Shown here: positions 10,214-31,128 of the stretch, one piece after another
Numbering within the stretch: the first letter of the stretch is position 1
How the letters are laid out: each line of letters opens with the position of its first letter
IMG/VR virus record: IMGVR_UViG_3300050343_000141
Coordinates: 1 to 56,450 of that record
Source of the DNA: a virus
Strand: one strand, 5' to 3'
DNA length: 56,450 bases
Program-made: the position numbers and the translations under genes
Notes under the pieces: model-generated
Databases searched by the model: none
What the model was told of the DNA's origin: nothing
The model's input: the letters and a program-made list of their open reading frames with translations, nothing else

Positions 10214-11839
10214 TTATGCACTCATAGCGGAACGATCCCGCTTCTCTGGTTTCATTAATGAATCTAGCTTGTCTCGCCAGCTAGCGGGTTCGGGAACTGC
10301 GAGCGCGTGGTAGGTGTCCATTTCTGCCAGCATCAGGCCAACCCAAGCTAATGCATCGACCTGATCGTCATGCACGCCCATTGGGAAACGCAGCATCTCT
10401 CCTACAAGATCCGCTGTGAAGTCCGCATCCCTCGGGAATAGGACCATGCCCTGCTGTATTCGGCCTTGTATGGCACGCGCTCGCAGTTCTTTGTCGCGCC
10501 TACCGACGCTCAAATCTTGAATATAGTGTTGGAACGCCTTCCGCTCACGAACGCGTTTCTCCAAGAACGGACCAATGGCCATGGACAGGTGACCCTTCTC
10601 GATGCCCACGGCTCGTGGTGCCCACTGGTCTGCAAAGTCCAATACGTTCTCCACAATCTGGAAGCCGTCGTACTTACCGCGCATGATGTCGACCACGTAC
10701 AGGTTGTCGAACTCATCGACCCCTACCGTGATCCCAACGGTAAAGTCGTTACGGTCACCCTTACCAATCGCCAAGTCCCACGCCTGATAGAACACCATGC
10801 GGCCAAGGTCAGTATCGCTAAGGTTGTAGTACTTAATCTGGTCACGCTTGAAGTAGTCACCTTCCTCCCCAACAGGTTGCTGTTGGTACAGCGCCGCCCA
10901 ATCCCTAGGGCCGACCGCCTTGTTGATTCGCTTCAGCGCATCTATGTCATACCGCGCGGGGTGTAACGCCTCGCCCGCATTCCGATACTCTTCGTCCTCC
11001 TCCGCAATCGCCGGATACGAGATCAGCTCCCACTGGTCGCCACCCTCCTCGGCCTGCGTCAACAAACGACCCGCCAGATCGTCGTCGTGCCATCGGGTCA
11101 TGATGACCAAGACACCGCCGCCGGGTGCGAGACGGGTATACGCCGTAGACGTGTACCAATCCCATGTACTCTCCCTGTTGTACTGACTCTCTGCCTCTTC
11201 TCGGTTCTTTACCGGATCGTCAATAACAAGAACGTGTGCACCACGGCCCGTGATACCACCACCAACACCCGCCGCTACAAAACCCCCGCCCTCAGACGTG
11301 AGCCATGCTTCAGCCGACTGACTCTGTGCGTCTAGTCGGGTTTTGAAGACGTTTTTGTAGCTGGGATCTCGGAGCATGTCTCGGACTTTTCTTGAGAAGC
11401 CCATCGAGAGACTCGCGGAATACGCAACGCTAATAAATTCGTGCGAAGGGTGGTTGCCAAGGTGCCACGCAGGGAACGCAATTGATGCAAGAGTGGATTT
11501 CCCGTGACGCGGTGGGACTTGGAGGATGAGGCGCGGGCCTTTTTTGTCGATGACGTCTTGGCTGAACTTTTCGAGCCTTTTGCAGATGTCGCGGTGGACC
11601 CAGCCCGCTTCGTATTCGGGGTTGACCCTTTCGACGAACGGGAGGAAGCGCTTGCGCGAGAGGAAACGCGCGGCGATTTCTTTTTTGGCTCTTTCTTTGG
11701 CGTCGTCTTCTTTACTGACATGTTCTTCTATCTCCGCTTCTTGTGCTGGCAACTCACATTCCATGCAAATCGTGCCGCCACGGAAGGCGAGTTCAGGTTT
11801 TTCGGTCTCGCACGCCACACATCGGCGATTTTTTATCAT
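10214..11839 (-). CDS. terL: Terminase large subunit
   Basis: 541 residues. The ATPase domain shows a Walker A variant PPRHGKST (about residue 109), Walker B HVLVIDDPV (about 202) and then the nuclease domain with DLAIGKGDRNDFTVGI (about 350) and the late acidic motif HDDQVDALAW. It cuts and pumps DNA into the procapsid. Unusually, residues 7-28 contain CxxC and a second CxxC 15 residues later, a small zinc-ribbon-like extension ahead of the ATPase. It overlaps TerS by 4 bases (ATGA). Confidence 0.93.
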   Translation of the reverse strand: MIKNRRCVACETEKPELAFRGGTICMECELPAQEAEIEEHVSKEDDAKERAKKEIAARFLSRKRFLPFVERVNPEYEAGWVHRDICKRLEKFSQDVIDKKGPRLILQVPPRHGKSTLASIAFPAWHLGNHPSHEFISVAYSASLSMGFSRKVRDMLRDPSYKNVFKTRLDAQSQSAEAWLTSEGGGFVAAGVGGGITGRGAHVLVIDDPVKNREEAESQYNRESTWDWYTSTAYTRLAPGGGVLVIMTRWHDDDLAGRLLTQAEEGGDQWELISYPAIAEEDEEYRNAGEALHPARYDIDALKRINKAVGPRDWAALYQQQPVGEEGDYFKRDQIKYYNLSDTDLGRMVFYQAWDLAIGKGDRNDFTVGITVGVDEFDNLYVVDIMRGKYDGFQIVENVLDFADQWAPRAVGIEKGHLSMAIGPFLEKRVRERKAFQHYIQDLSVGRRDKELRARAIQGRIQQGMVLFPRDADFTADLVGEMLRFPMGVHDDQVDALAWVGLMLAEMDTYHALAVPEPASWRDKLDSLMKPEKRDRSAMSA

Positions 11840-12799: not shown

Positions 12800-13059
12800 A
12801 TCGCGACACACTCAAAACTCAAATCGACGCACTCGCAGACAGCATCCAAGCCGTCAAAGACAAGGGTCCATCCATCCAAGAAACCCTAACCAAGCACGCC
12901 TCTAGAGCACAAGCCAAAGCACTATCAGGCTCACTCACAGGCAAAGACCTCACCTTCGCGTCCCTCAAACGCCTAGGCAAATACGCAGTCAACAATCCCG
13001 GAGAAATCCTACTCGGCGGCGTAGCAATCGCAATGTTCGACATCGAAGACATCTCTTAA
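12796..13059 (+). CDS. Early protein, unknown
   Basis: 87 residues: an N-terminal amphipathic helix (MNRDTLKTQIDALADSIQAV), a middle helix, and a hydrophobic patch near the C-terminus (LLGGVAIAMF). Starts in an ATGA overlap with the preceding micro-gene. Followed by a hairpin-plus-RBS cassette repeated later. Function unknown, and the C-terminal patch might peripherally bind membrane. Confidence 0.65.
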   Translation: MNRDTLKTQIDALADSIQAVKDKGPSIQETLTKHASRAQAKALSGSLTGKDLTFASLKRLGKYAVNNPGEILLGGVAIAMFDIEDIS

Positions 13060-13117
13060 ATCCACCAACCGGGGGCTTCGGCTCCCTTTCACCACCTACA
13101 GGGGTACAACCATCATG
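13057..13117 (+). repeat. Intergenic cassette, copy 1 (hairpin plus RBS)
   Basis: From a TAA stop to the next start codon. Contains TAAATCCAC, then GGGGGC-TTCG-GCTCCC (stem 13071-13086, one G-T pair), CTTTCACCACC and ACAGGGGTACAACCATC before ATG. The same unit recurs at 13623-13685. The hairpin may act as a weak terminator or stabiliser and the second half as a ribosome-binding site. Confidence 0.85.
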
Positions 13118-13315
13118 CTTTTTATCGACTATCTAGCAATCGCTGCAGTCATCTCCTTCTTCCTAACGGCAATCTTCCTCGCCATGTATATAGCCAATCG
13201 CTCTTACCTACCCGAACCAGCAACTAAACGCTCGTTCACCTTCGAACCGGACGAAGTCTACTGCGACGTATGTGGCACTCACTACACCACAGACGATCCT
13301 TGCCAATTCCACTAA
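13115..13315 (+). CDS. Membrane protein with cytoplasmic Cys motif
   Basis: 66 residues. Residues 4-28 form one transmembrane helix (DYLAIAAVISFFLTAIFLAM). The tail carries CDVCGTHYTTDDPCQFH, with three Cys and two His able to bind a metal. The gene uses the repeated ACAGGGGTACAACC ribosome-binding cassette. Early expression and membrane location would suit interference with the host envelope or superinfection exclusion, but that is only a guess. Confidence 0.65.
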   Translation: MLFIDYLAIAAVISFFLTAIFLAMYIANRSYLPEPATKRSFTFEPDEVYCDVCGTHYTTDDPCQFH

Positions 13316-13328
13316 CGGAGTATCCGAT

Positions 13329-13625
13329 ATGCAACAGATCTATCCCGAGATTAACAACCACATCCCCAACGCTCACATCGAGCTAGCCCACAAAGACACC
13401 ATCGAGACCTTCTCAGGCTCACAATTACAAAGCTTCATCGTCCAAGACCCAGACATCGCGGACTTCCTATCAGACATCTACTACTGGTCTACACCAACCG
13501 ACTATCTCGACGAGGCTAAACAACAGTTCAACGTCGCATTCGCAAGGCATCACAAGGCTCACATCGCCACCGTTAACTACGATAACAATCTTCATCGCTG
13601 GTGCATCCAAACAGTCACCTTCTAA
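13329..13625 (+). CDS. Early protein, unknown
   Basis: 98 residues from the ATG at 13329 (MQQIYPEINNHIPNAHIELA), preferred over an upstream alternative because it lies outside the preceding gene and has an ACGGAG Shine-Dalgarno. Mixed alpha/beta, rich in His, Asp and Tyr, with no membrane segment. No family recognised. Confidence 0.65.
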   Translation: MQQIYPEINNHIPNAHIELAHKDTIETFSGSQLQSFIVQDPDIADFLSDIYYWSTPTDYLDEAKQQFNVAFARHHKAHIATVNYDNNLHRWCIQTVTF

Positions 13626-13685
13626 ATCCACTAAATACGGGGGCTTCGGCTCCCTTTCACCACCAACAGGGGTACAACCATCGTG
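13623..13685 (+). repeat. Intergenic cassette, copy 2 (hairpin plus RBS)
   Basis: Same order of elements as at 13057-13117: TAAATCCAC, GGGGGC-TTCG-GCTCCC (13639-13654), CTTTCACCACC, ACAGGGGTACAACCATC and a start codon, here GTG. The two copies differ at only a few positions outside the spacer. Confidence 0.85.
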
Positions 13686-13922
13686 AAACTCACATACAAA
13701 CTCGCCATCCTTCAACCAACTGGCCGCATCTCTCAAACTCTCTTCCATCAACCAACCGACGGCTCGCTCAAAGACCACATCGAAAGCCTCATCGCAGACT
13801 ACCGCGAGTACCTTCAGTACGAGGACACGCTCCACTACACCCTCTATCTACGCAAGGCCAACTCTCAAGCCTTCGACATCATCGAGGAAGACACTCATGT
13901 CCTTCAATATCCTCTCTTCTAA
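13683..13922 (+). CDS. Early protein, unknown (GTG start)
   Basis: 79 residues starting at GTG, fixed by the repeated ribosome-binding cassette directly upstream. Sequence begins MKLTYKLAILQPTGRISQTL. Several aromatic and acidic residues, predicted mixed alpha/beta, no membrane segment. No family recognised. Confidence 0.65.
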   Translation: MKLTYKLAILQPTGRISQTLFHQPTDGSLKDHIESLIADYREYLQYEDTLHYTLYLRKANSQAFDIIEEDTHVLQYPLF

Positions 13923-13930
13923 CCAACATC

Positions 13931-13944
13931 GGGGCTTCGGCCCC
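13931..13944 (+). terminator. UUCG hairpin after the first early gene cluster
   Basis: GGGGC-TTCG-GCCCC, a perfect 5-bp stem 8 bases after a stop codon. No long T run follows, so termination may be partial. It marks the start of the long non-coding stretch. Confidence 0.5.
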
Positions 13945-14026
13945 ACTTCCACCCCCAAAACCAACCCCAACCCCCCAGACCCAACCCCAAAAACCAAAAC
14001 ACCAACCCCAAACCCCGACCAAAAGG
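13945..14026. repeat. C/A-only low-complexity tract
   Basis: About 80 bases composed nearly only of C and A, built from irregular ACCCCAA-like units, with almost no G or T on this strand. It ends at a G-rich AAAGGGAGGGGGG segment that could pair with it. Such strand bias can favour unwinding, triplex or unusual single-strand structures. It borders the repeat array downstream. Confidence 0.75.
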
Positions 14027-14050
14027 GAGGGGGGCAGCGTGCGTGTGGAA

Positions 14051-14090
14051 AATTCCAAGCGTGCCAGTGAAATTCCAAGCGTGCCTGTGA
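14051..14090 (+). repeat. Two tandem 20-bp repeats containing TTCCAAGCGTGCC
   Basis: AATTCCAAGCGTGCC followed by AGTGA then the same 15 bases and TGTGA. The 13-base core TTCCAAGCGTGCC recurs at 15585-15597 (non-coding) and 16145-16157 (inside a small secreted-protein gene). Purpose unknown. It could be a protein-binding site. Confidence 0.8.
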
Positions 14091-14133
14091 CAAATCATGG
14101 GCCATGCATCATGTTTCATGTTCAAAAAGGTGT

Positions 14134-14164
14134 ACCCCCACCGCCAAATGGCCTGAGCATGCCA
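14134..14164 (+). repeat. Covarying hairpin element, copy 1
   Basis: ACCCCCACCGCCAAA followed by TGGC-CTGAGCAT-GCCA. A second copy at 19703-19735 has nearly the same 15-base lead, the same loop apart from one base, and a stem changed to TGTC..GACA, so pairing is kept. This supports a selected structure (RNA hairpin or DNA operator). Confidence 0.6.
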
Positions 14165-14261
14165 ATAAACTGTTCATTTATACAGTCGTTATGCGTTTCT
14201 AACCATGAATCATGCTTCCTGTCGCATGTTACGTGTCCCTCTCGCACGTCTAAAACACGTC

Positions 14262-14542
14262 TGTTCCATGTGTTCCAGTGTGTTCCGGGTTAGCCCCAAC
14301 ATGGAACAAATATGGAACATCAACAAAATCAACACGTTACGTGAATCTGTTCCGGGTGTTCCGGGTGTTCCATGTTTTTCGGGTTGACGCGAATATAAAA
14401 CACACAAAAACACAAAAGGCATTTATCTCAATACTACTTTTTAATGGAACATATGGAACATCAATTAAATCAAGCACTTATCTGGGAACAAAAGTGGGAA
14501 CACATGGAACACATGGAACATGCAGGTATCATGCTTGGAACA
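14262..14542. repeat. Array of 15 TGTTCC/GGAACA sites (possible origin or operator array)
   Basis: Plus-strand TGTTCC begins at 14262, 14271, 14281, 14348, 14357 and 14366. The reverse complement GGAACA begins at 14303, 14314, 14446, 14455, 14485, 14497, 14506, 14515 and 14537. Several neighbours are 9 or 10 bases apart, close to one DNA turn. The region is non-coding, AT-rich between sites, and lies in the early region upstream of the replication genes. Iterons of a replication origin or a repressor/activator array are the two likely explanations. Confidence 0.8.
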
Positions 14543-14604
14543 TGCATGTAACTACCAGAAACATGCACCATGAATCATGCCCCACTCACTATAAATCATG
14601 CAAC

Positions 14605-14802
14605 ATGGAGTCATTTATGGCCATTCTCGCATTCTACGAGCACAGCAGCGCCGGGCAACGACGAAAACTCATCTCGCATTCATCGGACTCCGGCTCACCT
14701 GAACCACAACGAAAACTTATATCGGAGGTAAAAGAGCGGTACGGGGTACTTCACCGTAGCGCGACCAAAGCAAAAGAAAGCTCCTCGTCCCTCGTCGCTT
14801 AA
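14605..14802 (+). CDS. Possible small basic protein, uncertain
   Basis: 65 residues from an ATG at 14605 (MESFMAILAFYEHSSAGQRR), containing the repeated segment QRRKLIS twice. The Shine-Dalgarno is poor and it lies at the end of the repeat array, so it may be a chance frame. Listed because it is the only plausible coding stretch in 13.92-14.87 kb. Confidence 0.25.
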   Translation: MESFMAILAFYEHSSAGQRRKLISHSSDSGSPEPQRKLISEVKERYGVLHRSATKAKESSSSLVA

Positions 14803-14867
14803 CAAATAGCAAGTGTGATTGGCAATTCAGTCAGTCACGTCATTATCAAAAGACCTAGGAGGTCATC

Positions 14868-15503
14868 ATGGACAGTACTACCTTTATCACCAACGCGTTT
14901 CAGTCACTCACCGAGCGTTCTGGCAAGAAAGGTGCCGCCGCACGATTCGTTCAGTCTCAAGACGGTGCCACTATCGAAGAACAGTTCGTCAACGCCATCA
15001 TCGCTACCTACTCCGAGCAGGAGTCAGGCGGTGAGTCAACGCACCACATGCTCACGTTACTGGGTCTGTTCCAAGACCTACTCGACAAGTGTTCGTGGAA
15101 CGCTAGACGTCTTACCCGTGCGTTACAGCGCGAGGCAGAGGTCGGCGACATCAACCACATCTACGGTGTCGATACCGTGGAATCTACTTCGGTAGACGTT
15201 GGTGTGTCCTGCGAGTTAGAGCATATCGACGAGATCATCTCTAACGACTACGCTCACCTCACCATTGAGTGGTCACGTCTGTCACAGGTCGTAGCACCTG
15301 ACAGGGACGACGCTCAGTTGTACATGTTCGGTCCATCTCAGTACGACGAGGCCAGCGACCAGTGGGTGCAAGTCCACAAGTGCGAGGACTTCGGCAGTGC
15401 GTTAGCCGCGATGGACTTAGAGGCTGACCGGTTAGCTGAGAAATCACGCCAAGAGGCCAAGCAGAAGCTACTAGCTCTTCGCGAGTTACAAGCCGCCGCT
15501 TAA
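14868..15503 (+). CDS. Early protein, unknown, alone on its transcript
   Basis: 211 residues starting MDSTTFITNAFQSLTERSGK, with a strong AGGAGGT Shine-Dalgarno. Soluble, acidic, mostly helical at the N-terminus (about 1-95) and C-terminus (170-211, Lys/Glu/Ala-rich coil). It is bounded upstream by the repeat array and downstream by a strong terminator, so it appears to be expressed as its own unit, possibly strongly. The proximity to the array could mean it is controlled by it or binds it. No family recognised. Confidence 0.75.
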   Translation: MDSTTFITNAFQSLTERSGKKGAAARFVQSQDGATIEEQFVNAIIATYSEQESGGESTHHMLTLLGLFQDLLDKCSWNARRLTRALQREAEVGDINHIYGVDTVESTSVDVGVSCELEHIDEIISNDYAHLTIEWSRLSQVVAPDRDDAQLYMFGPSQYDEASDQWVQVHKCEDFGSALAAMDLEADRLAEKSRQEAKQKLLALRELQAAA

Positions 15504-15509
15504 CCATCA

Positions 15510-15541
15510 CCCTCGGTGCCTTCGGGCATCGGGGGTTTTTT
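15510..15541 (+). terminator. Strong rho-independent terminator
   Basis: CCCTCGGTGCC-TTCG-GGCATCGGGGG forms an 11-bp stem with two G-T pairs and a UUCG loop, followed by six T. It lies 6 bases after the stop of 14868-15503. Confidence 0.92.
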
Positions 15542-15621
15542 ATGTTTACGATTGAAACCCTAACCCAGCGCGTGCGGAACCCGGTTCCAAGCGTGCCCGC
15601 CTTCTAAACAGGAGAATAAAG

Positions 15622-15918
15622 ATGTTTATAGATTGGAAAATGCAGTCAATTAAGTTCTTAGCCGGTGTCTTCCTAGGTCTGATGACCGTGCAGGTGCTAG
15701 CTCAGGTGGACTACGACCCCTACGAGCGAACTACTAACTACGATGACTACGACAGCGACGTAGAAATAATCGACTACGGCAATGGCGTCACTGACTCATA
15801 CAACTGGGACACCAACGAGTATCAGGACGTGGAAGTCGTCAACGATTTGGGCAACGGTCAGGTGGAGGTGTACAACTACGACACCGGTGAATATCAGGTT
15901 ATAGACACATGTTGTTAA
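15622..15918 (+). CDS. Small secreted acidic protein
   Basis: 98 residues. Signal peptide: basic start, hydrophobic core FLAGVFLGLMTVQVLA, likely cleavage after LA before QVDYDP. The mature part is rich in Asp, Tyr and Asn with two imperfect repeats of NG..(D/E)(S/V)YN(W/Y)DT(N/G)EYQ, and ends in CC. Start at 15622 follows AAACAGGAG. An internal ATG at 15640 is possible. It overlaps the next gene by 10 bases. A periplasmic phage protein in an early block suggests envelope modification or superinfection exclusion, but function is unknown. Confidence 0.7.
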   Translation: MFIDWKMQSIKFLAGVFLGLMTVQVLAQVDYDPYERTTNYDDYDSDVEIIDYGNGVTDSYNWDTNEYQDVEVVNDLGNGQVEVYNYDTGEYQVIDTCC

Positions 15919-16220
15919 CCACGTTCGTCGCTGTAGCTCTGGCTGCAGCGCAAACAACGACACATAGCTATGACTACTGCGCCGTTCTTAGCCTAATCGC
16001 AGAAAAGACCATGGAGCAGAGGCAGAACGGTGTGTCCATGGCCCATCAGCTAGACACACTAACGGGCTACAGCCCCAACGTACAGGAAACAGCTAAAACA
16101 CTCATACTTAACGCATATTCTGTGCAGAAGTTTGAGACAGACTCTTCCAAGCGTGCCGCCGTAAAGACGTTTGGCCAACAGACCATGTCTTCTTGTTACC
16201 AAGTGAGGGTAATCACATGA
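15909..16220 (+). CDS. Small secreted protein, partner of the preceding gene
   Basis: 103 residues. Short N-terminal signal (MLLTTFVAVALAAAQTTTHS). The mature part is helical with Cys at the start (YDYCAVL) and near the end (SSCYQV), able to form a disulfide in the periplasm. Translation is probably coupled: its start lies inside the end of 15622-15918 and its stop overlaps the next ATG. One copy of TTCCAAGCGTGCC lies inside the gene. Confidence 0.65.
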   Translation: MLLTTFVAVALAAAQTTTHSYDYCAVLSLIAEKTMEQRQNGVSMAHQLDTLTGYSPNVQETAKTLILNAYSVQKFETDSSKRAAVKTFGQQTMSSCYQVRVIT

Positions 16221-16433
16221 GCGACGACGTCATTGAACATCACATACTCAAGCGACTGTTGTTGGAGAGCAGTTCCAAGGCACGTGACCTACCTCAGTAG
16301 CTTAGGCAGAGAGTACTTAGAGAGCCTTGGGATCAAATCAGATGCCTTTGCCTTTGCAGTCCAGATCATTACTCCAATAGGTAAAGAATACGAGCCGTCG
16401 TCTTCCGACAACTTTCGTCGTCGTAGATATTAG
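16217..16433 (+). pseudogene. Short early gene with apparent frame break
   Basis: An ATGA-coupled frame from 16217 gives MSDDVIEHHILKRLLLESSS and seven more residues, stopping at 16300. A second frame covering the next 130 bases encodes LSSLGREYLESLGIKSDAFA and a basic tail to 16433, but has no good start of its own. Together they read like one ~70-residue protein interrupted by a frame change near 16280-16295. Alternatively only the 27-residue peptide is made. Confidence 0.4.
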
Positions 16434-16585
16434 CTGCTTAATAACACGACGATAGAACGCACCCGCATTACCTGTAGCTAAACACTACGTATCCTCGTGC
16501 AATAAGTGACAACTTGGACGACAGTATTAGTAATGCCTATACGGTAAGCGTATTATTACCACTAATGAAACAGGAGCCATGTGAC

Positions 16586-16801
16586 ATGGACAAGCAAGAA
16601 GCTTCATCTTCAGTCATCAACGCCCTTAAAACATACATCGGCGTACCTCTGTTCATCATCATCCTATCCATGCTGTTCGCCATCGCAGGTCTATGGGCCT
16701 TCGCGATCATGGCAGGCATCGCATTAGTAGGTGCAATTCCGGCAGCTATTCAGCATCGACGGACCATACAGGAGGCGATCAATGTCAAACAGCAGAGCTG
16801 A
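16586..16801 (+). CDS. Small membrane protein
   Basis: 71 residues from ATG 16586 (MDKQEASSSVINALKTYIGV), chosen because AAACAGGAG lies 9 bases upstream. The hydrophobic span about 18-55 can form two transmembrane helices (PLFIIILSMLFAIAGLWAFA, then AIMAGIALVGAIPAAI), with a basic tail. A holin is a possible role given its build, although early position argues for an envelope-modifying protein. The downstream gene starts inside its 3' end. Confidence 0.65.
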   Translation: MDKQEASSSVINALKTYIGVPLFIIILSMLFAIAGLWAFAIMAGIALVGAIPAAIQHRRTIQEAINVKQQS

Positions 16802-16979
16802 GGAATTCGTCGAAATGACTGCCGGGCAGCCTACCGACGGCAACGGTTCACTCATCGATAGAGAAAAGTGGAGCCAACGCGTGCTGTTCAAGATGTACAT
16901 CAACTACGTCGTAGGTAACGACAAGATCCCATCGTGGCACGACTTCCTCAACTTCGAAGAAGAGATGCGGTCGCTATGA
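16782..16979 (+). CDS. Early protein, unknown
   Basis: 65 residues from ATG 16782 (MSNSRAEEFVEMTAGQPTDG), with CAGGAGG upstream inside the preceding gene. Soluble, with aromatic residues in the second half (FKMYINYVV, WHDFLNF). ATGA overlap with the next gene. Confidence 0.6.
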   Translation: MSNSRAEEFVEMTAGQPTDGNGSLIDREKWSQRVLFKMYINYVVGNDKIPSWHDFLNFEEEMRSL

Positions 16980-17062
16980 GCTGGGACAACGAAATGGTTA
17001 TCGCACTCTTGTGTGTATCAATCATCACCCTCGCCTGTCTCGCTATGACAGGACACCTATAA
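16976..17062 (+). CDS. 28-residue membrane micro-protein
   Basis: Starts in an ATGA overlap and consists of a short polar head (MSWDNEM) followed by one transmembrane helix (VIALLCVSIITLACLAM). Translational coupling and the clean hydrophobic helix support it as real in spite of its length. Confidence 0.5.
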   Translation: MSWDNEMVIALLCVSIITLACLAMTGHL

Positions 17063-17085
17063 CCCTCCAAGAAGGAGCATGAACC

Positions 17086-17514
17086 ATGAACTTAGCAGAA
17101 TTTAAAACCTTCAACTTCACCCGTTCTCCCACCGATCACGTCCAACTTCGTTACAACAACGAGCTTGAGCTGCAGTACTGCGGCGAATCATGCGGCCTAA
17201 TCGTGCCGTGGTTCGTGGAGATCACAGGGCTGATCGACGAAAACGAGCCTGAGTTATCTGGCACTGCAGAACTAATCGAACTCATCGCCAAGTCAATGGA
17301 CGATACCTACGGTCACGGAGGCTTCAATGCGTATCCGTTCACCGGTGACGTCATGTTGTCGGGCGTCTATCGAGCAGACAACGACGAAGATCCACCCCTT
17401 GATCCAATCGTGCAGGCTATCTACGAGAACGTGCACATGTATGTGTACCCGTACGCCATCACTGCATTAGTAGACACCAACAACGGCAATCAGAAGATTG
17501 CGAGGTTCGACTGA
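17086..17514 (+). CDS. Early protein, unknown
   Basis: 142 residues starting MNLAEFKTFNFTRSPTDHVQ, with GGAG 8 bases before the ATG. Soluble, acidic, mixed alpha/beta, with GESCG and a His/Gly-rich TYGHGGFNAYPF segment. No family recognised. It opens a run of three closely spaced small genes. Confidence 0.65.
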   Translation: MNLAEFKTFNFTRSPTDHVQLRYNNELELQYCGESCGLIVPWFVEITGLIDENEPELSGTAELIELIAKSMDDTYGHGGFNAYPFTGDVMLSGVYRADNDEDPPLDPIVQAIYENVHMYVYPYAITALVDTNNGNQKIARFD

Positions 17515-17523
17515 GGGCCAACT

Positions 17524-17703
17524 ATGAGCAAAGAAGAAGAACCGCAAGTAGGCGTCACGCGCGAGCAGTTCTACGAGTGGCTTGATACATGCCCCATAGG
17601 TAACGAATGGGTTTTAGTAGCAGAAGACGATTACGGGTATTGCCGAGTGGTCTTTTGCTTCGATGAAACAGGAGAGGTCTACTTTAACAATGAAGAAGAT
17701 TAA
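17524..17703 (+). CDS. Early protein, unknown, 59 residues
   Basis: Starts MSKEEEPQVGVTREQFYEWL after GAGGGCCA, acidic, with two Cys in the second half. Its end overlaps the start of the zinc-ribbon gene by 14 bases, indicating coupling. No family recognised. Confidence 0.6.
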   Translation: MSKEEEPQVGVTREQFYEWLDTCPIGNEWVLVAEDDYGYCRVVFCFDETGEVYFNNEED

Positions 17704-17869
17704 CTGCACCAAGTGTGCAGCCCTTATCGACGGTTACGTGCCCTTCCCCGTGGAAGATAGCGACGAGCTGCTGTGCCACAACTGCTGGGACATGCATCAA
17801 GAAGTGCAACAAGACTATTACGAACCATCGGAATCAGACGAGTGGGCCTCGTTCGATCCAGATTGTTAA
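17690..17869 (+). CDS. Small zinc-ribbon protein
   Basis: 59 residues: MKKINCTKCAALIDGYVPF, then CHNCWDMH, giving two CxxC pairs about 30 residues apart, a treble-clef or zinc-ribbon layout, followed by an acidic Tyr/Ser-rich tail. Such small phage proteins often bind host transcription or translation factors, but no specific target is evident. AAACAGGAG lies 15 bases upstream. Confidence 0.65.
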   Translation: MKKINCTKCAALIDGYVPFPVEDSDELLCHNCWDMHQEVQQDYYEPSESDEWASFDPDC

Positions 17870-18070
17870 GTATTGACGAAGGTGTGTGCATCCTCACCCC
17901 GCGTTTTTCAGTTCCGCGGAATGTCACCGCTTGCTGGCATTACTTACTCAACCTGATCGTATCGCCCTTTTTGCACACCGGCTTTGTCGTTCGCAGATGT
18001 ACGCTCGGAGAAGTCTCATTCAGAAGGAAGGTTGAAAGCAAGCACTAACATGAAACAGGAGACATGAATC

Positions 18071-18979
18071 ATGCAAAGACCCGACGCGCAGATGGTGCGT
18101 GCAGCACTCAAGTTTGAAGGTAATTGTAAGAAAGACATTGAGCACTCCCTGTCGTTACCTTTCATGTATTTCGCCGACCAAGAACACATGGACGTACCGT
18201 GGCTTCAAGACGCAGAAAAGCACAAAGTTGAAAGGCTAGACATTCTTCCAGACGAGTGGATGTTCAACGAGTTTGTCATGATGTTTAAATCAAGAGGCGT
18301 GCTTACAAGGCATGACTTTACTCACGTTACTAGAAATGACAGCCATCCTATATTCAGCAAAATCTTAGAGGAAAAGCCCGAAGCACGTTCATTAGTGTCT
18401 GTATGGTCTTGGGATCAAAAAATAGAAGACAGCGGTCCTTCTAGCTACATCAAAACACTGTGGGAAGTTTATGACGACGAAATAAGATCTAGCCACTGCA
18501 TTGTTGACTTTGACCCTAAGTATTCGCCAATTAATCTAGATTCAATTGATGAAGAAACAGCCACTCAACATCAACGTCTTTGCACCGAATCAATAGGCAC
18601 CTTTATACAAACCGTGCAGGCCATGCATTTATGGCTCAAAAACTCAGACAAGCACCCTGTCGAAGTCACGCCCGTAAAGAAACCCAAGTTGTCACCGCTT
18701 AACAAAGACAAACCTTGGCGTCGTGCTACCGGTCCACGCATCCTGTTCCTCGATCGGATGCCTACGACACAGGCTGAAAGCACAGGTACGCATGCATCAC
18801 CTAAACCACATCGACGACGTGGCCACTGGCGAGAGCTTAGTCATCCACGTTACCGGCATCACCCGCAGTATCAACAGAGGATATGGGTCAAGCCATCGTT
18901 TATTGGTCCAGAACAGACTGTGTACGAGAGCAATTTGTACAGATTAATCAAACCGTTAGACGAGCTTCTTGCTGCCTAA
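18071..18979 (+). CDS. Phage protein with basic aromatic C-terminal domain, unknown
   Basis: 302 residues. The N-terminal two thirds is soluble and mostly helical (MQRPDAQMVRAALKFEGNCK onward). The C-terminal part has PHRRRGHWRELSHPRYRHHP and then IWVKPSFIGP, a basic, Trp/His-rich pattern that recurs at the end of otherwise unrelated phage and plasmid proteins and could bind nucleic acid. The start follows AAACAGGAG and lies in a CATGAATCATG repeat. Function unknown. Confidence 0.7.
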   Translation: MQRPDAQMVRAALKFEGNCKKDIEHSLSLPFMYFADQEHMDVPWLQDAEKHKVERLDILPDEWMFNEFVMMFKSRGVLTRHDFTHVTRNDSHPIFSKILEEKPEARSLVSVWSWDQKIEDSGPSSYIKTLWEVYDDEIRSSHCIVDFDPKYSPINLDSIDEETATQHQRLCTESIGTFIQTVQAMHLWLKNSDKHPVEVTPVKKPKLSPLNKDKPWRRATGPRILFLDRMPTTQAESTGTHASPKPHRRRGHWRELSHPRYRHHPQYQQRIWVKPSFIGPEQTVYESNLYRLIKPLDELLAA

Positions 18980-19000
18980 CACTATTAGGAGATTTATATT

Positions 19001-19261
19001 ATGGAAATCATCACCATGGGTGCCATCACTGCACTCGCGTTTCTTATCCTGCTGTACAAGCTAGGTATCTACAAGTTCCTACGCTTCGACAGCGTCACTG
19101 ACCTGCTCGTCACCGCAGCATTAGCGATGCTATTTGCAGGCACCATGTCCGGCATGATGATCGCCGCAACTGCAGGCATCTTCGTGTCACTCGCACTGTT
19201 CGCCATGCGCAAGCTGGGCGGTATCCCACAGTTCTCACTCAAAGAGATTTTTCAGTCATGA
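19001..19261 (+). CDS. Multi-span membrane protein (holin-like size)
   Basis: 86 residues with hydrophobic spans at about 5-22 (ITALAFLILLYKL), 33-52 (LLVTAALAMLFAGTMSGMM) and 53-70, and a short charged C-terminus. Size and topology would suit a holin, but no lysis gene was recognised nearby. ATGA overlap with the next gene. Confidence 0.65.
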   Translation: MEIITMGAITALAFLILLYKLGIYKFLRFDSVTDLLVTAALAMLFAGTMSGMMIAATAGIFVSLALFAMRKLGGIPQFSLKEIFQS

Positions 19262-19416
19262 ACGAAGACGACGTGTACGCAGACCCGGAGTACGTGCCAC
19301 CGACGCACGACGAGCAAGACTGTTTCGACGCGTTCAAAGAGCAGCGTGAACGAGAAAGTCGAGACTTACACGTTGACCCACCTAAATCCTATGAGGAGGC
19401 GACCCATGGAGCATGA
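19258..19416 (+). CDS. 52-residue acidic protein
   Basis: Starts in an ATGA overlap, MNEDDVYADPEYVPPTHDEQ, strongly acidic and hydrophilic, and ends inside the start of the next gene. No family recognised. Support is translational coupling and the absence of any alternative frame here. Confidence 0.55.
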   Translation: MNEDDVYADPEYVPPTHDEQDCFDAFKEQRERESRDLHVDPPKSYEEATHGA

Positions 19417-19699
19417 ATCAGTGTTGTTCGAACGTATGCAGAACGCCGATAAAAGCGACATAAATGACGCGTCTAAAGAAATAGCAGAGATGTTAAGGAA
19501 ACGTTCGCAAGATACGTACCCTGCCCTGCTTGGCGTCATGCTCAAGACCATCGCTCAGTTTGTCGAAGCTGGGCCAGATAGTAGAGATGCTATCCACACA
19601 GCGTTAATCGGTATCGACGAAGACACGTACGCAAAGATCGACTTTGAGTTTGTGTCTGCAGAAGAACTTTTAGCTCCAAGCAGCGAGGCACTTCATTAA
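19406..19699 (+). CDS. Early protein, unknown
   Basis: 97 residues from ATG 19406 (MEHESVLFERMQNADKSDIN), with GAGGAGG just upstream. Largely helical and acidic, no membrane segment. It is the last gene before a repeated hairpin and the MoxR operon. Confidence 0.65.
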   Translation: MEHESVLFERMQNADKSDINDASKEIAEMLRKRSQDTYPALLGVMLKTIAQFVEAGPDSRDAIHTALIGIDEDTYAKIDFEFVSAEELLAPSSEALH

Positions 19700-19702
19700 C
19701 GA

Positions 19703-19735
19703 ACCCCCGCCGCCAAACTGTCCTGAGTATGACAG
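19703..19735 (+). repeat. Covarying hairpin element, copy 2, upstream of MoxR gene
   Basis: ACCCCCGCCGCCAAA, then CTGTC-CTGAGTAT-GACAG. Compared with 14134-14164 the lead differs by one base, the loop by one base, and both stem arms have changed together. It lies in the 80-base gap before the MoxR gene, so it may control that operon. Confidence 0.6.
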
Positions 19736-19779
19736 CCAAAACTACTCATCCCTAATTAACTAAACAGGAATCATGAATC

Positions 19780-20778
19780 ATGAGATCTATACGACCACGC
19801 GACTTAATGCTTGAACTCAAAGCCAACGCCCTTGCTGGAGAAAACAGCATGATCTGGGGATCACCCGGTATCGGCAAATCCGAAATTGTCTACCAACTTG
19901 CTCAAGCGTTAGGCGCTGACTTGTACGAGTTACGTGCCAACTTGTTCGATCCCGTCGACGTACGTGGCGGACTCAAAGTAGTCGAGCAGGAAAACGGTAC
20001 GTTCAAAACATGCTACGGCATCCCCGAAGACTATCCACCATCAGAAACCATGAAGCCTGTTGTGTTCTTCATCGACGAACTCACAACTGCATCCAAGGCA
20101 ACGCAAGCAGCGCTACTGCAGTTACTGCTCAACCGACGCATCGGTACGTACAAGCTACCCGCTAATACCGTTATCGTCGCTGCAGGTAACCGTGCTCGTG
20201 ACAGAGCAGCCGTGCACGAGATGCCAATGCCTGTCAAAGATCGTTTCGACCACTTCACTCTTGAACCTAACGCCGACGACTTCTGTGCGCACGCACTGCA
20301 AAACGACGTCGACCCTTCGATCGTGGGTTTCATACGTTACAGACCGCAGTTGCTCAACGATCCAGATGCAGCCAACAACGCATTCCCGACACCTCGTTCG
20401 TGGACACGCCTCAGTAACAAGCTGCCCCACATGCAGGACGAGTTCTACGGTGTTGCATCCAAGGTCGGTGACGGTGCTGCAGGCGAGTACTTAGCGTTCC
20501 GCAAGATGTTTCATCAGTTGCCTGACATCGACAAAGTCATCGCTAATCCCGGCACAGTGTCAGTTCCACTAGAGCCTAGCCAGATCTACGCCGTTGCCAG
20601 TGCGTTAGCAGCGCGGGCCGACGCGACGACAGTCAAGCCAATACTCAAGTACCTGCGCAGACTTGCACCTGAGTACCAAGTAGTAGCCGTGCGAGACATC
20701 ATCGGCAAAGACAAGTCGCTTATCACTAACACCGAGGTCCAATCATGGATCACGGATAACTCATCAGTCGTGCTTTAA
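19780..20778 (+). CDS. MoxR-like AAA+ ATPase
   Basis: 332 residues. Walker A GSPGIGKS (about 27-34), Walker B VVFFIDEL (about 93-100), sensor-type VIVAAGNRARD (about 128-138) and a following PVKDRFDHFTLEP motif are typical of the MoxR subgroup, which acts with VWA-domain partners to remodel or load metal into protein complexes. Here the VWA partner lies two genes downstream. N4-like phages also carry a MoxR/VWA pair. The gene starts in a CATGAATCATG repeat after AAACAGGAA. Confidence 0.85.
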   Translation: MRSIRPRDLMLELKANALAGENSMIWGSPGIGKSEIVYQLAQALGADLYELRANLFDPVDVRGGLKVVEQENGTFKTCYGIPEDYPPSETMKPVVFFIDELTTASKATQAALLQLLLNRRIGTYKLPANTVIVAAGNRARDRAAVHEMPMPVKDRFDHFTLEPNADDFCAHALQNDVDPSIVGFIRYRPQLLNDPDAANNAFPTPRSWTRLSNKLPHMQDEFYGVASKVGDGAAGEYLAFRKMFHQLPDIDKVIANPGTVSVPLEPSQIYAVASALAARADATTVKPILKYLRRLAPEYQVVAVRDIIGKDKSLITNTEVQSWITDNSSVVL

Positions 20779-20789
20779 GGAGATACATC

Positions 20790-21497
20790 ATGGGTACAGT
20801 TCGTTTAACAGACAAAAGAAAAAGTGAGTACAGGGACAAGGCTAAAGAGTTGTTTGTTGTATCTAATCCAAATCCTGAGTTTACTCCCGAAGAAACCATT
20901 TCGATCATGCAGGCTATGGCTAACCACCCATTCCAAGTTGCCTGCCGTAACTTCGTAATGGAGCAAAACGCGCTCTACAACGTCGACGACAGTGACGAGG
21001 ACTCAAAACTACCGTTCAACTTCTCAATGGAGAAAACTAAATTCGATCAAATTGAATGCAGAGTAACCGAAGACGACAACCAAACCATAGCGTGTAAGTT
21101 ACCGACTACGCTTGTGATGTTTGGTGAGTCAGGATGGCGTTACAGTTCACACAAACGTGCGATGGACTTCATACCTGATAAGTTCTTTTCTAACCCAAAA
21201 GATATTCTCATTATGCAAGCGGCTATACGTCGCGTAAATTCCGAACGTAAAGACCAATCACATAAGTTCGACACCTACATATCTAACGTTAAAGCAGCAC
21301 TTACAAACTGCAACACACTAGGTCAGCTAATCAAACTGTGGCCTGCCGCTTCCAAATTAGCCAGTTCAGAAGACCTGTCTCAGTTGCACAAAAAAGAAAC
21401 ACGTACACAACAAGCTAATCGTGTGCGCGAAGAAATCGACCTCGACGTGTCTGCCCTCAATTCAACCGTACTGACTGCTAGCTTACTAGGAGATTAA
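20790..21497 (+). CDS. Unknown protein between MoxR and VWA genes (Nmad5-like layout?)
   Basis: 235 residues starting MGTVRLTDKRKSEYRDKAKE. A central beta-rich region (about 75-125) is followed by helices and a late NCNTLGQLIKLWPAASKLA segment. That ending and the general layout resemble the phage Nmad5 family, predicted from genome context to take part in DNA base modification, but the match is by eye only. Tight spacing (11 and 2 bases) with AGGAGAT sites makes it part of the MoxR/VWA operon. Confidence 0.6.
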   Translation: MGTVRLTDKRKSEYRDKAKELFVVSNPNPEFTPEETISIMQAMANHPFQVACRNFVMEQNALYNVDDSDEDSKLPFNFSMEKTKFDQIECRVTEDDNQTIACKLPTTLVMFGESGWRYSSHKRAMDFIPDKFFSNPKDILIMQAAIRRVNSERKDQSHKFDTYISNVKAALTNCNTLGQLIKLWPAASKLASSEDLSQLHKKETRTQQANRVREEIDLDVSALNSTVLTASLLGD

Positions 21498-21499
21498 CT

Positions 21500-22639
21500 A
21501 TGCCACGGGGCCAAATAACAGACGACGAACGTACTTTAGCTGAAGCAGCAATGACTAAAGCTCGTTCCAACTTAATCATGAACCATCCGTTCTACGGTGT
21601 GCTGGCGCTCAAGCTCAAGCTTATTAACGACGACGACACGCCAACTGCATCCGTCGACGGTGTAAACCTGCGCTACAACAGTCGGTTCATCAACAAACAA
21701 AGTGCAGTCCAAGTGCAAGGCTTGGTCGCTCACGAAGTTATGCACTGTGTGTTCAGCCACATGACCCGCCGTGAGGAACGTGATCCCATGCGCTGGAACA
21801 TTGCTGCCGACCACGCCATCAACCTGCTACTGCTAGATGATGGTTTCATTCTGCCTGACGAGGGTATCCACGACCCGCAGTACAAAGATATGTCCACCGA
21901 GGCTATCTACGCCAACCTGCCTGCAGATGCTGGACCGCAATGTAAGTGGGGTATCGTCTTAGATGCATCCAACGACGACAGCGACGACACAACTGCCAAC
22001 GTGCAGGAGATAGAAACTGATTGGTTGATAACCATGAAGCAGGCAGCAGAGATCGCGAAGCAGGCGGGTAAGATGCCAGCCGGTATCGAGCGACTCATGG
22101 ACAACGTCGAACGTGGCCAGATCGACTTCCGTGACCATCTGTGGCCGTTCTTTCAAGCATCCAACAACGACGATTACAACTGGAAGCGTCCGCACCGTGC
22201 CTACATCAGCGAAGACGAGTACTTCCCATCGTTGTACAGCGAGGCACCGGGTACATACGTCGTTGCAATCGACACCAGTGGCTCTACCCAAGACCAATTA
22301 CAAAAATTTCTATCCGAGATCTGTTCTATTCACGCAGACATGCAGCCAGAACAACTGATCCTTATCCACTGTGACGCAACTGTTCAAAAAGTAGTCACCA
22401 TCGAACCAGACGAAACCATGACCCTAGAGGAACACGGGACAATGGTTGGCGGCGGGGGTACACGTTTCGAACCTGTCTTTGAGTACATCAACGAGCACAA
22501 CATCGACCCAGAATGTGTCGTGTACCTCACCGACGGCGAGTGCGATTGGCCATCAGACGTGCCGCATTATCCTGTGCTGTGGGTCATCACCAACAAAAAT
22601 ATGAAGGCCGAATGGGGTAACTCCACTTATTTGACTTGA
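21500..22639 (+). CDS. VWA-domain putative metallopeptidase (DUF2201-like)
   Basis: 379 residues. The N-terminal domain has the zinc motif HEVMHCVFSH (about 78-87) followed by a WNIAADHAIN segment, as in the putative metallopeptidase family that precedes a VWA-like domain. The C-terminal domain has AIDTSGSTQ (about 255-263), a DxSxS metal-dependent adhesion site, and YLTDGECDWP (about 342-351). Family members pair with MoxR ATPases. The substrate is unknown. It is the third gene of the trio. Confidence 0.85.
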   Translation: MPRGQITDDERTLAEAAMTKARSNLIMNHPFYGVLALKLKLINDDDTPTASVDGVNLRYNSRFINKQSAVQVQGLVAHEVMHCVFSHMTRREERDPMRWNIAADHAINLLLLDDGFILPDEGIHDPQYKDMSTEAIYANLPADAGPQCKWGIVLDASNDDSDDTTANVQEIETDWLITMKQAAEIAKQAGKMPAGIERLMDNVERGQIDFRDHLWPFFQASNNDDYNWKRPHRAYISEDEYFPSLYSEAPGTYVVAIDTSGSTQDQLQKFLSEICSIHADMQPEQLILIHCDATVQKVVTIEPDETMTLEEHGTMVGGGGTRFEPVFEYINEHNIDPECVVYLTDGECDWPSDVPHYPVLWVITNKNMKAEWGNSTYLT

Positions 22640-22662
22640 GTTTTAATATTAGGAGATTGATA

Positions 22663-22896
22663 ATGAATGCAAGCGAGTATCTTCAAGAAGAAGCATCTCT
22701 CGATTCTTTGATTGCCCAAGACTACCGTAGTAAAGACCTCTACCGTTACGTCGCAGTGTGGCTCTACAGCCGCAACCGAGAGCAATTCGAAGAAGTAGCC
22801 AGCGAGTATTTTCACCAAGAAGGTGTCATCAACGTTATGAAAACAGCCATCGACAGTACTAATCAGTTCGAAGCCACACTAAAGGATCTGTTGTGA
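22663..22896 (+). CDS. Small protein upstream of DNA polymerase
   Basis: 77 residues from ATG 22663 (MNASEYLQEEASLDSLIAQD), with AGGAGATTGATA before it. Soluble and helical, no recognised family. Its TGA overlaps the GTG start of the polymerase gene, so polymerase translation may depend on it. Confidence 0.65.
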   Translation: MNASEYLQEEASLDSLIAQDYRSKDLYRYVAVWLYSRNREQFEEVASEYFHQEGVINVMKTAIDSTNQFEATLKDLL

Positions 22897-24707
22897 AGAA
22901 GCTGTTTCTCGATTTTGAGACATTCTTTTCCGTCGCCTGTTCGTTGCGCAAGCTATCGACTACTCAGTACATCCGTCACCCCGAGTTCCTAGTCTGGGGT
23001 GTAGGTGTGCAGTGGGAAGACGAGGAGCATGCGACATGGGTCACGGGTAGCGACTGTGAGTCATACCTAGACAACATCGATTGGGATAACACCGCGCTGG
23101 TGTGCCACAACTCACTCTTCGACGCCCAAGTGCTGCGCTTAGTCTACGGACACGTTGCCGCATACAACTACTGCACTGCTTCTATGAGTCGTGGTGTATG
23201 GCCGACGAGTTCAGCATCACTCAAAAATACTGCAGAACGCTGCTTCCCCGGTGACGACACAATGCGAAAAGGGGAAGAGCTGGTACAAGCCAAGGGAATC
23301 AGTGACTTACCGCCCGACATAGAGGAGTCAATTGCTGGCTACTGCAAACAGGACGTAGCGCTTACCAAGGCTATCTTCGACAAGATCTACCCGCACTTCC
23401 CAGAACCTGAGTTCAACTTAATCGACATGACCATTCGCATGGCCGTCGAGCCATCACTGGCGCTCGATCGCGAACGACTGCAGTCACACCTCGATGAGAT
23501 TACTGCGAAGAATCAACAGGTTATAGCAGACAGCGGTACGACTCGCGAAGTACTGGCCAGCAACGACAAGTTCACAGCTCACATTGAGAGCATGAACATC
23601 GTTGTGCCAACCAAGGTCAGCCCCAACACAGGGAAAACAATCTCTGCGTTCGGCAAGGCAGACAAAGGCTGGCAGCAGCTACGTGCCAAGTACCCAGAAC
23701 ATGAGAACTTATGGTCGGCCCGCATCACTGCTAAGTCTCGCATCGACGAGACTCGTGCGCAGGCGTTCCTTGACGCTGCTGACCCAGACACAGATCTATT
23801 ACCCGTGCCGCTCCGTTACTACGGTGCGCACACAGGACGATTCTCCGGCACCGACGGATTGAATCTACAGAATCTACCCCGTGGCTCTGAGCTACGTAAG
23901 GCTTTGCGAGCGCCCCACGACCAAAGTCTTGTGTACGTAGCCGACTTGAGCAACATCGAGAGCAGAATGCTGGCATGGCTGGCAAATGAAGATGAGCTAC
24001 TTCATAGCTATCGACACGGGGTAGACCTATATTGCGAGTTCGCGTCGCAGATCTACAACCGAGAGATAACCAAAGCAGACGCTACCGAACGGTTCGTCGG
24101 CAAGACCTGCATCCTCGGTCTCGGTTACGGCGTTGGCCATAAAAAGCTAAGAGAAACATTAGCTTCCGGTTCCCAAGGCCCAGTTGTTGAGTTATCAGAC
24201 AGCGAAGCACGCGGCATCGTTCAGTTGTATCGCAACATGTACTGGCGCATACCGGCACTGTGGTCGCAGCTAGAAAATCTTACTGCATCAATGGTGTCGC
24301 ACAGTCACGAACCAACGCCATACAGTTGCTTAATGTTTCAAAATCAATCAGTTAAGTTGCCAAACGAGTTGGCGCTACGCTACCCCAACCTACACATGAG
24401 ACAGGGACAGCTAGCGTACGAGACATCGAAAGGCACCGAGTACACCTACGGCGGACGACTCACAGAAAATATCGTGCAGGCGCTGAGTAGAATCATAATC
24501 ACGGACGCGATGTTACTCATCGAGCAAGAAATACCCGACGCTCGGGTGGCGCTAACCGTCCACGATGAAGTAGTAGTTGTAGCTCCGGCTATTAGTCCCG
24601 GTTATACTCTCGACAGCATCATTGAGATCTTATGCCGGAACCCAGAATGGGCAAAAGAACTTCCGCTCGCTGCTGAAGGCGGCTATGCCGACAACTACTC
24701 GAAATAA
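22893..24707 (+). CDS. DNA polymerase, family A, with 3'-5' exonuclease
   Basis: 604 residues, GTG start. The N-terminal exonuclease domain shows Exo I LFLDFETF (about 4-11), Exo II HNSLFDAQV (about 71-79) and Exo III YCKQDVALT (about 150). The polymerase domain shows motif A ADLSNIESR (about 350), motif B RFVGKTCILGLGYG (about 400) and motif C VHDEV (about 556). All catalytic residues are present. No 5'-nuclease domain. It replicates the phage genome together with the primase-helicase downstream. No purZ/datZ genes are nearby, so nothing points to 2-aminoadenine DNA. Confidence 0.93.
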   Translation: MKKLFLDFETFFSVACSLRKLSTTQYIRHPEFLVWGVGVQWEDEEHATWVTGSDCESYLDNIDWDNTALVCHNSLFDAQVLRLVYGHVAAYNYCTASMSRGVWPTSSASLKNTAERCFPGDDTMRKGEELVQAKGISDLPPDIEESIAGYCKQDVALTKAIFDKIYPHFPEPEFNLIDMTIRMAVEPSLALDRERLQSHLDEITAKNQQVIADSGTTREVLASNDKFTAHIESMNIVVPTKVSPNTGKTISAFGKADKGWQQLRAKYPEHENLWSARITAKSRIDETRAQAFLDAADPDTDLLPVPLRYYGAHTGRFSGTDGLNLQNLPRGSELRKALRAPHDQSLVYVADLSNIESRMLAWLANEDELLHSYRHGVDLYCEFASQIYNREITKADATERFVGKTCILGLGYGVGHKKLRETLASGSQGPVVELSDSEARGIVQLYRNMYWRIPALWSQLENLTASMVSHSHEPTPYSCLMFQNQSVKLPNELALRYPNLHMRQGQLAYETSKGTEYTYGGRLTENIVQALSRIIITDAMLLIEQEIPDARVALTVHDEVVVVAPAISPGYTLDSIIEILCRNPEWAKELPLAAEGGYADNYSK

Positions 24708-24712
24708 GGACT

Positions 24713-24898
24713 ATGTCCAGACTAGTGATTACAAGGAAAGTAGGAGAAAAAATTACTCTGAAATCAGAGGGTCAAACAGTCGCTGACATATCCGTTGGGA
24801 AGGTAGATCGAAACCAAGTTCGAGTCGTCGTTGAAGCCGACGCTGCAGTAGAGATCATTTGGGACGACCCACCTAAAAAGGATAAACATAAAGATTAG
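24713..24898 (+). CDS. csrA: CsrA/RsmA-family RNA-binding protein homologue
   Basis: 61 residues. LVITRKVGEKITL matches the first strand of CsrA, and later ISVGKVDRNQVRVVVEA matches the conserved GxxxNQVRxGVxA core. CsrA dimers bind GGA in mRNA leaders with the first strand (ITR[RK]) and an Arg near position 44. Here the first strand is kept, but the equivalent of HREE is IIWDDPP, so that Arg is missing, and the C-terminus is basic. It may bind RNA differently or antagonise host CsrA. It lies 5 bases after the polymerase gene. Confidence 0.85.
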   Translation: MSRLVITRKVGEKITLKSEGQTVADISVGKVDRNQVRVVVEADAAVEIIWDDPPKKDKHKD

Positions 24899-24911
24899 GG
24901 GCAACTAATTT

Positions 24912-27428: not shown

Positions 27429-27431
27429 TGC

Positions 27432-28190: not shown

Positions 28191-28234
28191 CCCGAGCAAT
28201 TAACCGACTCAAACTCCTAGGCCGGTTACTTTGC

Positions 28235-28270
28235 AACGCCTCCCTTCTGCAGAAGTTGGGGGGCGTTTTT
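28235..28270 (+). terminator. Rho-independent terminator after nuclease gene
   Basis: AACGCCTCCC, a 13-base loop (itself able to pair as TTCTGCAGAA), then GGGGGGCGTT and a T run. A 10-bp stem with one T-G pair. It separates the polymerase operon from the SNF2 operon. Confidence 0.85.
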
Positions 28271-28285
28271 ATTTAAGGAGGCAAT

Positions 28286-28579: not shown

Positions 28580-28598
28580 TCGTAACTGTATTAGTATA

Positions 28599-28627: not shown

Positions 28628-28654
28628 TGAAACCTGTTAAATGAGACATGACAC

Positions 28655-30414: not shown

Positions 30415-30453
30415 ATCCTTGATTTATCTATCAATATTAGGAACACTATTATT

Positions 30454-31122: not shown

Positions 31123-31128
31123 TGTGTT

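Follow-up and report, generated by a model that had tools for sequence, protein, structure and literature searches.

The locus at positions 14262-14542 of a viral genome raises two questions: why 15 exact copies of one hexamer, TGTTCC or its reverse complement GGAACA, are gathered within 281 bp, and which protein might read them. The DNA analysed, hereafter called the window, comprises the 56450 bases of an IMG/VR virus record. An initial annotation had proposed that cooperative protein binding at these sites marks either a replication origin or a master operator. Our comparisons with other phages suggest that the array is very probably the replication origin of this phage, with TGTTCC iterons that would be bound by the C-terminal winged-helix-like domain of its own helicase-primase.

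Sites and setting of the array

Six of the 15 sites are on the + strand and nine on the − strand. As had been claimed, a cluster of this size in both orientations is far above chance, with dinucleotide-preserving shuffles (n = 2000) giving a mean of 0.34 sites and a maximum of 3 in 281 bp. When the entire window is shuffled (20 times), the top count reached by any hexamer in a 281-bp stretch is 4-5, compared to the 15 observed. The initial annotation had asked for a count over the whole genome, and this also favours its claim, since only 26 scattered copies occur outside the array for a whole-window expectation of 28. The proposed spacing of 9-10 bp is likewise correct (9, 10, 9, 9, 9, 9, and 9 bp), and intervals of 11 and 12 bp are also present. 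The 56,450-nt window yielded no second array of this kind; the next densest hexamer reaches 10 copies near position 55676, within a coding repeat. The open reading frame at 48925-55755 (2276 aa), which probably encodes a repetitive virion protein, has approximately 10 copies of GCAAGA/CGCAAG near that position.

From left to right, the array reads +++, −−, +++, a 74-bp spacer, −−, and then −, −−−, −. Eight sites are located to the left of the spacer and seven to the right. Because all six + sites fall on the left and seven of the nine − sites on the right, the sites mostly face inward. In this region, A/T content measured over 50 bp is highest in the stretch that starts at 14420. Two further elements were identified with the consensus sequence for IHF, which we take to be WATCAANNNNTTR. 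The features of the array and of its candidate initiator gene are as follows.

14262-14286, + strand: outer left triplet of TGTTCC iterons (starts 14262, 14271, and 14281; spacing 9 and 10 bp)
14303-14319, − strand: reversed iteron pair in the left half (GGAACA starts 14303 and 14314)
14327-14339, + strand: match AATCAACACGTTA to the presumed IHF consensus, between iteron groups; putative DNA-bending site
14348-14371, + strand: inner left triplet of TGTTCC iterons (starts 14348, 14357, and 14366; spacing 9 and 9 bp)
14372-14445, no strand: A/T-rich spacer of 74 bp (70% A/T compared to 50% for the window); predicted melting region
14446-14460, − strand: inner right GGAACA iterons (starts 14446 and 14455; spacing 9 bp)
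14468-14480, + strand: match AATCAAGCACTTA to the presumed IHF consensus; its − strand carries TAAGTNNTTGATT, an element shared with other arrays, 20 bp before the next TGTTCC
14485-14542, − strand: outer right GGAACA iterons (starts 14485, 14497, 14506, 14515, and 14537)
24912-27428, + strand: DUF5906 AAA+/SF3 helicase-primase of 838 aa, recognized by Pfam, phrog, PDB, and Foldseek matches; putative initiator
27081-27311, + strand: winged-helix-like C-terminal domain of that protein (residues about 724-800); candidate iteron reader

The array occupies a divergent region that separates leftward from rightward operons. Genes to the left of approximately 12.4 kb run leftward and include a large-terminase homologue (10214-11839, relatives up to 68% identity) located 2.4 kb from the array. 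The rightward genes (14868-31551) include those for a MoxR-type AAA protein, a DUF2201 protein, a PD-(D/E)XK nuclease, an SNF2-type helicase, DNA polymerase A (22893), and the DUF5906 protein (24912-27428). The interval 13840-14867 is crossed only by overlapping mechanical ORFs. GC skew, which had been suggested as a check for an origin at this place, does not turn at the array and gives no origin signal.

Several other features of this region were noted. The window's extreme of GC skew (approximately −0.40) covers 13001-14000, and the strand is very C-rich at 13940-14020, just left of the array. A tandem 20-mer, AAATTCCAAGCGTGCC(A/T)GTG, is present in two copies with 95% identity at 14050-14089. 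The 14-mer ACCATGAATCATGC is identical on both sides of the array and has a third, diverged copy (14202-14215, 14567-14580, and 14588-14601), and the window contains only four copies of CATGAATCATG; the 14-mer copies that flank the array are perhaps sites of another protein. Among the rightward genes, those for the MoxR-type AAA ATPase and the DUF2201 (metallopeptidase plus VWA-like) protein (19780-22639) are common to the window and five other phages with TGTTCC arrays (L025, L060, L076, L081, and L087), in which a DUF3150-type gene joins them. The nucleotide modification associated domain Nmad5 is weakly matched by the product of 20790-21497 (E = 4.3e-6), and a role in DNA modification is possible.

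Comparable arrays in other phages

A nucleotide search of phage records with 3 kb around the array gave no match, and blastn with the array returned only weak matches of 27-30 bp, in Phocaeicola phages. Literature searches for TGTTCC as an origin repeat yielded nothing relevant. The loci fetched with a terminase alignment include about two dozen relatives that share 54-68% identity over the segment listed. Of these, all nine with at least 3.19 kb of upstream DNA carry 8-13 copies of a single hexamer as a mixed array, positioned 1.9-4.5 kb upstream of the terminase gene, and a tenth relative with 2.6 kb of upstream DNA carries 12 copies. The words used are TGTGCA, ATGTGT, TGTGTA, GTTCCA, TGTAAC, TGTACC, and TGTTAC, but never TGTTCC. 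Conservation of the array, which had been named as a check, therefore holds for its position and layout and not for the TGTTCC word, suggesting that architecture and place are inherited while the word changes. All three relative contigs longer than 40 kb encode the window's helicase-primase, at 44, 42, and 36% identity.

Pattern searches revealed TGTTCC arrays beyond these relatives. Three TGTTCC sites at 9-bp steps occur in at least 119 viral stretches, some of which have the +++ ... −−− layout of the window; matches of this first scan with one orientation, many of which may be coding repeats, were excluded. A pattern of two facing TGTTCC pairs is present in 91 viral and 44 bacterial-genome stretches, compared to 10 viral stretches for the same pattern with reversed letters. 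Several of these 10 control matches are also arranged as +++−−−, which indicates that other words exist. The resulting collection of mixed TGTTCC arrays comprises 145 loci with the window counted, or 113 when made non-redundant. Because the loci were picked by pattern, the 9-bp spacing and the gap are partly imposed, whereas the number of sites per side, the 10.5-bp period, and the A/T content of the spacer are not. The commonest split is six sites and six (16 of 98 arrays), a period of 10.5 bp is evident in same-strand distances above 24 bp (R = 0.39, n = 657), and the spacer is richer in A/T than its own locus in 89 of 98 arrays.

The presumed IHF element recurs in this collection. The sequence TAAGTNNTTG, which reads as the IHF consensus when its neighbouring bases are included, is present in 25 of the 113 arrays, in most cases 20-22 bp ahead of an iteron, compared to 3 of 112 background stretches. 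The consensus that we assume for IHF has 34 sites in the 113 arrays, compared to 3.45 in shuffles. IHF may act at these sites.

The protein cluster present at the largest number of loci (57 of 145) is the one that holds the product of 24912-27428. Its genes are located a median of 16 bp from the TGTTCC array, which is 3ˊ of the gene in 51 of 61 cases (genes of 200 aa or more). Among 56 cluster proteins, Pfam matches are to DUF5906 (33), VapE (29), Pox_D5 (12), DUF927 (11), and D5_N (10), where one protein may match several of these families. A DUF5906/VapE/D5/DUF927-type helicase is encoded elsewhere in the record in 15 of 24 long contigs that lack a cluster helicase at the locus. Eleven of these 15 are of the DUF927 type, one of which also matches DUF5906 weakly, and they are often distant from the array, as in the window. 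Searches with DUF5906 and VapE alone missed the helicases of marine relatives, which are of the DUF927 type. No such helicase was recognized in the other nine long contigs, the larger of which are L163, L164, L196, and L197.

Individual loci in the collection deserve mention. The arrays in L163 (9391-9631 of a 61-kb contig) and L258 (766-1006, Glaciimonas immobilis) have a left half like that of the window (+++−−++) in a region with integrase genes, and no helicase-primase was recognized nearby. A +++−−− TGTTCC array adjoining a DUF5906/D5_N protein is present in L257 (1756-1887), an archaeal MAG labelled Candidatus Bathyarchaeota, which represents either an archaeal virus or a mis-binned contig.

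A candidate initiator and its C-terminal domain

The initial annotation had seen no obvious iteron-binding protein in the window and had suggested a new binder. This view is not supported, because the product of 24912-27428 belongs to the helicase-primase group that includes the iteron-binding proteins P4 alpha, SaPI Rep, and Cch2. It matches PF19263 (5.1e-19), phrog_24712 (1.2e-154), and the helicase region of NrS-1 in PDB (1.2e-28), and Foldseek retrieves NrS-1 (1.1e-15) and SaPI5 PriRep1 (9.6e-11). The helicase core, with Walker A and B sequences (GVQGTGKG and VVDEF) in the alignment, is well modelled and resembles NrS-1, SaPI5 PriRep1, poxvirus D5/E5, and papillomavirus E1. The N-terminal half is poorly modelled, and no primase Pfam family was matched. 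In both models, the C-terminal domain has the order helix-helix-helix-strand-strand, with a weak fold match to winged helices (best Foldseek E = 0.014). Scans with the single helicase protein or the 14868 product found no relative, and relatives were reached only via alignments and DNA patterns.

The association was also examined from the helicase side, with loci fetched by helicase alignments only and thus independently of TGTTCC. Although the query alignment A2 was derived from loci with TGTTCC arrays, very few of the loci that it fetched use this word. An array was defined as a hexamer repeated six times or more within 330 bp, with copies in both orientations, and was sought in 1 kb around or past the end of the helicase match. 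By this definition, DUF5906 loci have an array in 67 of 69 non-redundant cases, compared to two in coding stretches of the same loci, and VapE loci have one in 42 of 67 cases, compared to none in coding control stretches. Among the 58 DUF5906 arrays with at least eight sites, 19 are split 6+6 and 18 are split 6+5 or 5+6. The spacer has a median length of 81.5 bp and is richer in A/T than its locus in only 27 of the 58 arrays, a set that contains many high-GC phages. The iteron words vary among these loci and include TGTTCC, GTTCCA, TGTGCA, GTGCGG, ATCCAC, ACTACG, and others. Overall, the same layout with differing words looks to be present in many unrelated phages and to be common in tailed phages.

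Variation in the word makes it possible to ask which part of the helicase it follows. Among DUF5906 loci (1596 pairs), identity of the helicase C-terminus correlates with iteron similarity (rho = 0.42), and identity of the core does so less (0.26). The partial correlation for the C-terminus given the core is 0.35, compared to label permutations with a mean of 0, a standard deviation of 0.044, and a maximum of 0.12; the pairs are non-independent, and label permutation copes with this only partly and ignores the tree. The partial correlation for the core given the C-terminus is 0.03, and a sliding window places the peak of the word correlation at the final 80 residues of the helicase. At the level of sequence comparison, similarity of the C-terminus predicts similarity of the iterons and the core adds nothing. 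This agrees with published iteron binding by the C-terminal parts of Cch2 and SaPI Rep (PMC7581432). A residue-level specificity code was not reached with the window and three close homologues. The helix ISAVKFGKLL of the window is identical in the most distant of these, L554 (word TGTTAC), and at the same position L553 (word GTTCCA) resembles L552 (word TGTGCA).

Known replicons, alternatives, and implications

The array is likely best read as an origin of the SaPI/PICI/P4 kind, with the product of 24912-27428 as its putative initiator. PICI origins consist of two sets of short iterons around an A/T-rich region and have a cognate AAA+ helicase that is often fused to a primase (PMC6092414), and SaPI Rep reportedly seems to bind as a pair of hexamers (PMC7581432). 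Similarly, the window has two sets of one short iteron flanking a 74-bp A/T-rich spacer, and the top fold matches of its protein include the SaPI5 primase-helicase. However, its hexamer is TGTTCC in 15 sites, two of them reversed, and the array is not immediately 3ˊ of the initiator gene but 10.4 kb away in a divergent region. In addition, the window, at 56 kb, encodes a terminase and PolA of its own and represents a tailed phage rather than a helper-dependent satellite. The locus would therefore work like PICI origins without being one.

Other systems share some of these features. The annotated P4 iterons (TGTTCACC) have five letters, TGTTC, in common with the word of the window, neighbouring iterons are 9 bp apart, and crr is directly 3ˊ of the alpha gene. 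P4 nevertheless needs two separate sites (ori with 6 iterons, and crr with 10 iterons in two 120-bp repeats) where the window has one array, and P4 alpha differs from the window's protein in having a Toprim primase (PMC4234260). The NrS-1 primase-polymerase-helicase is the closest solved relative of the window's helicase. Directly 3ˊ of the NrS-1 primase gene are 13 sites with a different iteron, AAGTGT, and no published iteron origin for this phage was found in the literature searched. Its genome is smaller (37 kb) and is said to lack a conventional replicative polymerase (PMC8775771). In Stenotrophomonas phage S1, a DUF5906-type gene annotated only as DNA primase is followed directly by 12 copies of GTGCGG arranged 6+6, and thus both the word and the adjacency to the helicase gene differ from the window. 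The SCCmec protein Cch2 is a D5-type helicase whose isolated C-terminal domain binds its iterons (PMC7581432), although its putative origin has only three direct AAGTG iterons and is not from a phage.

No clear array is present in KPP25 or phiA008, so that these two relatives, the closest homologues in culture, speak neither for nor against the rule. Near the gene, Vibrio 1.017.O, Pseudoalteromonas PH1, and Paracoccus KLEP18-1 have at most weak arrays. Pseudomonas phage KPP25 (NC_024123.1) carries 16-18 copies of overlapping hexamers such as CCCAGC/GCTGGG within 300 bp at approximately 29863-30280, in DNA annotated as coding.

If the array is an origin of this type, the C-terminal winged-helix-like domain would bind the TGTTCC iterons, and one helicase hexamer would assemble on each of the two iteron sets that face the spacer. 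The 74-bp A/T-rich spacer would then melt, aided by IHF-type bending at two sites, and the two helicase rings would depart in opposite directions, priming synthesis for the family A polymerase (22893). We infer iteron binding, spacer melting, double-hexamer loading, the action of IHF, and initiation at the array itself from the comparisons described above. Several observations speak against this reading. The helicase gene is 10.4 kb from the array rather than adjacent as in PICIs, the 15 sites with two reversed are not a clean 6+6, GC skew does not turn at the array, the C-terminal domain matches winged helices only weakly, some TGTTCC arrays are in contigs with no recognized helicase of this class, and the spacers of the DUF5906 set exceed their loci in A/T content in fewer than half of the arrays.

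It is unlikely that the array is an origin at which another phage or host protein binds TGTTCC and the helicase is merely recruited. Such a binder could account for the occurrence of TGTTCC arrays with several helicase families (DUF5906, VapE, D5, and DUF927) and for the arrays without a recognized helicase. However, the word differs between close relatives, which a host protein is not expected to follow, and it tracks the C-terminus of the helicase. Binding of iterons by the isolated Cch2 domain also argues for the helicase itself as the reader.

The operator half of the original proposal, unlike the origin half that the phage comparison strongly supports, finds no support. A regulator that binds cooperatively and controls both the divergent early (14868) and late (12399) operons is quite improbable, even though the array lies in the intergenic region between them and a small HTH_17 protein is encoded at 31768-31989. 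In other phages the arrays are found at the 3ˊ end of a helicase-primase gene rather than in its promoter, and the layout is kept along with the helicase even where the word differs. In addition, the 14868 product has no detectable relatives. Origin function and some autoregulation are not mutually exclusive.

Iteron-like arrays occur at partition sites too, and the terminase gene is 2.4 kb away, but a centromere-like partition site or a packaging site is very improbable here. No partition gene was recognized among the window proteins scanned with Pfam, which lie outside the late region, and the arrays of other phages mostly adjoin a helicase gene rather than that of the terminase. Chance or low-complexity expansion, which the resemblance of some triplets to short tandem expansions (TGTTCCGGG twice in succession) might suggest, is refuted by the two orientations, the 10.5-bp phasing, the conservation in many phages, and the absence of such arrays from shuffles.

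The preferred reading, an origin recognized by the phage's helicase-primase, fits a broader pattern that we put forward tentatively. AAA+ helicase-primases of phages and satellites may share a general loading code, in which 12 sites, six facing six and phased by the helical turn, would provide one site per subunit of two head-to-head hexamers, with a word drifting in step with the initiator's C-terminal domain. The comparative rule of two facing sets of about six sites, with a word swapped along with the C-terminal domain, goes beyond the literature that we found; older papers on SaPI and P4 origins fall outside of it, and priority is uncertain. If such a code is true, then a change of word would allow phages to keep mutually exclusive origins, and sequence alone would suffice to locate origins in genomes.

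Origins are known for only a minority of phages. If a helicase-primase gene together with a two-orientation hexamer array marks the origin, then origins would be predictable across hundreds of uncultured phages, including those whose array is far from the helicase gene. Our data suggest that this layout is common to PICIs and many tailed phages, a point relevant to the source of satellite replicons. The 6+6 count is a testable structural prediction for the loading of two helicase rings, and the covariation of the word with the C-terminal domain offers a route to study how origin specificity changes.
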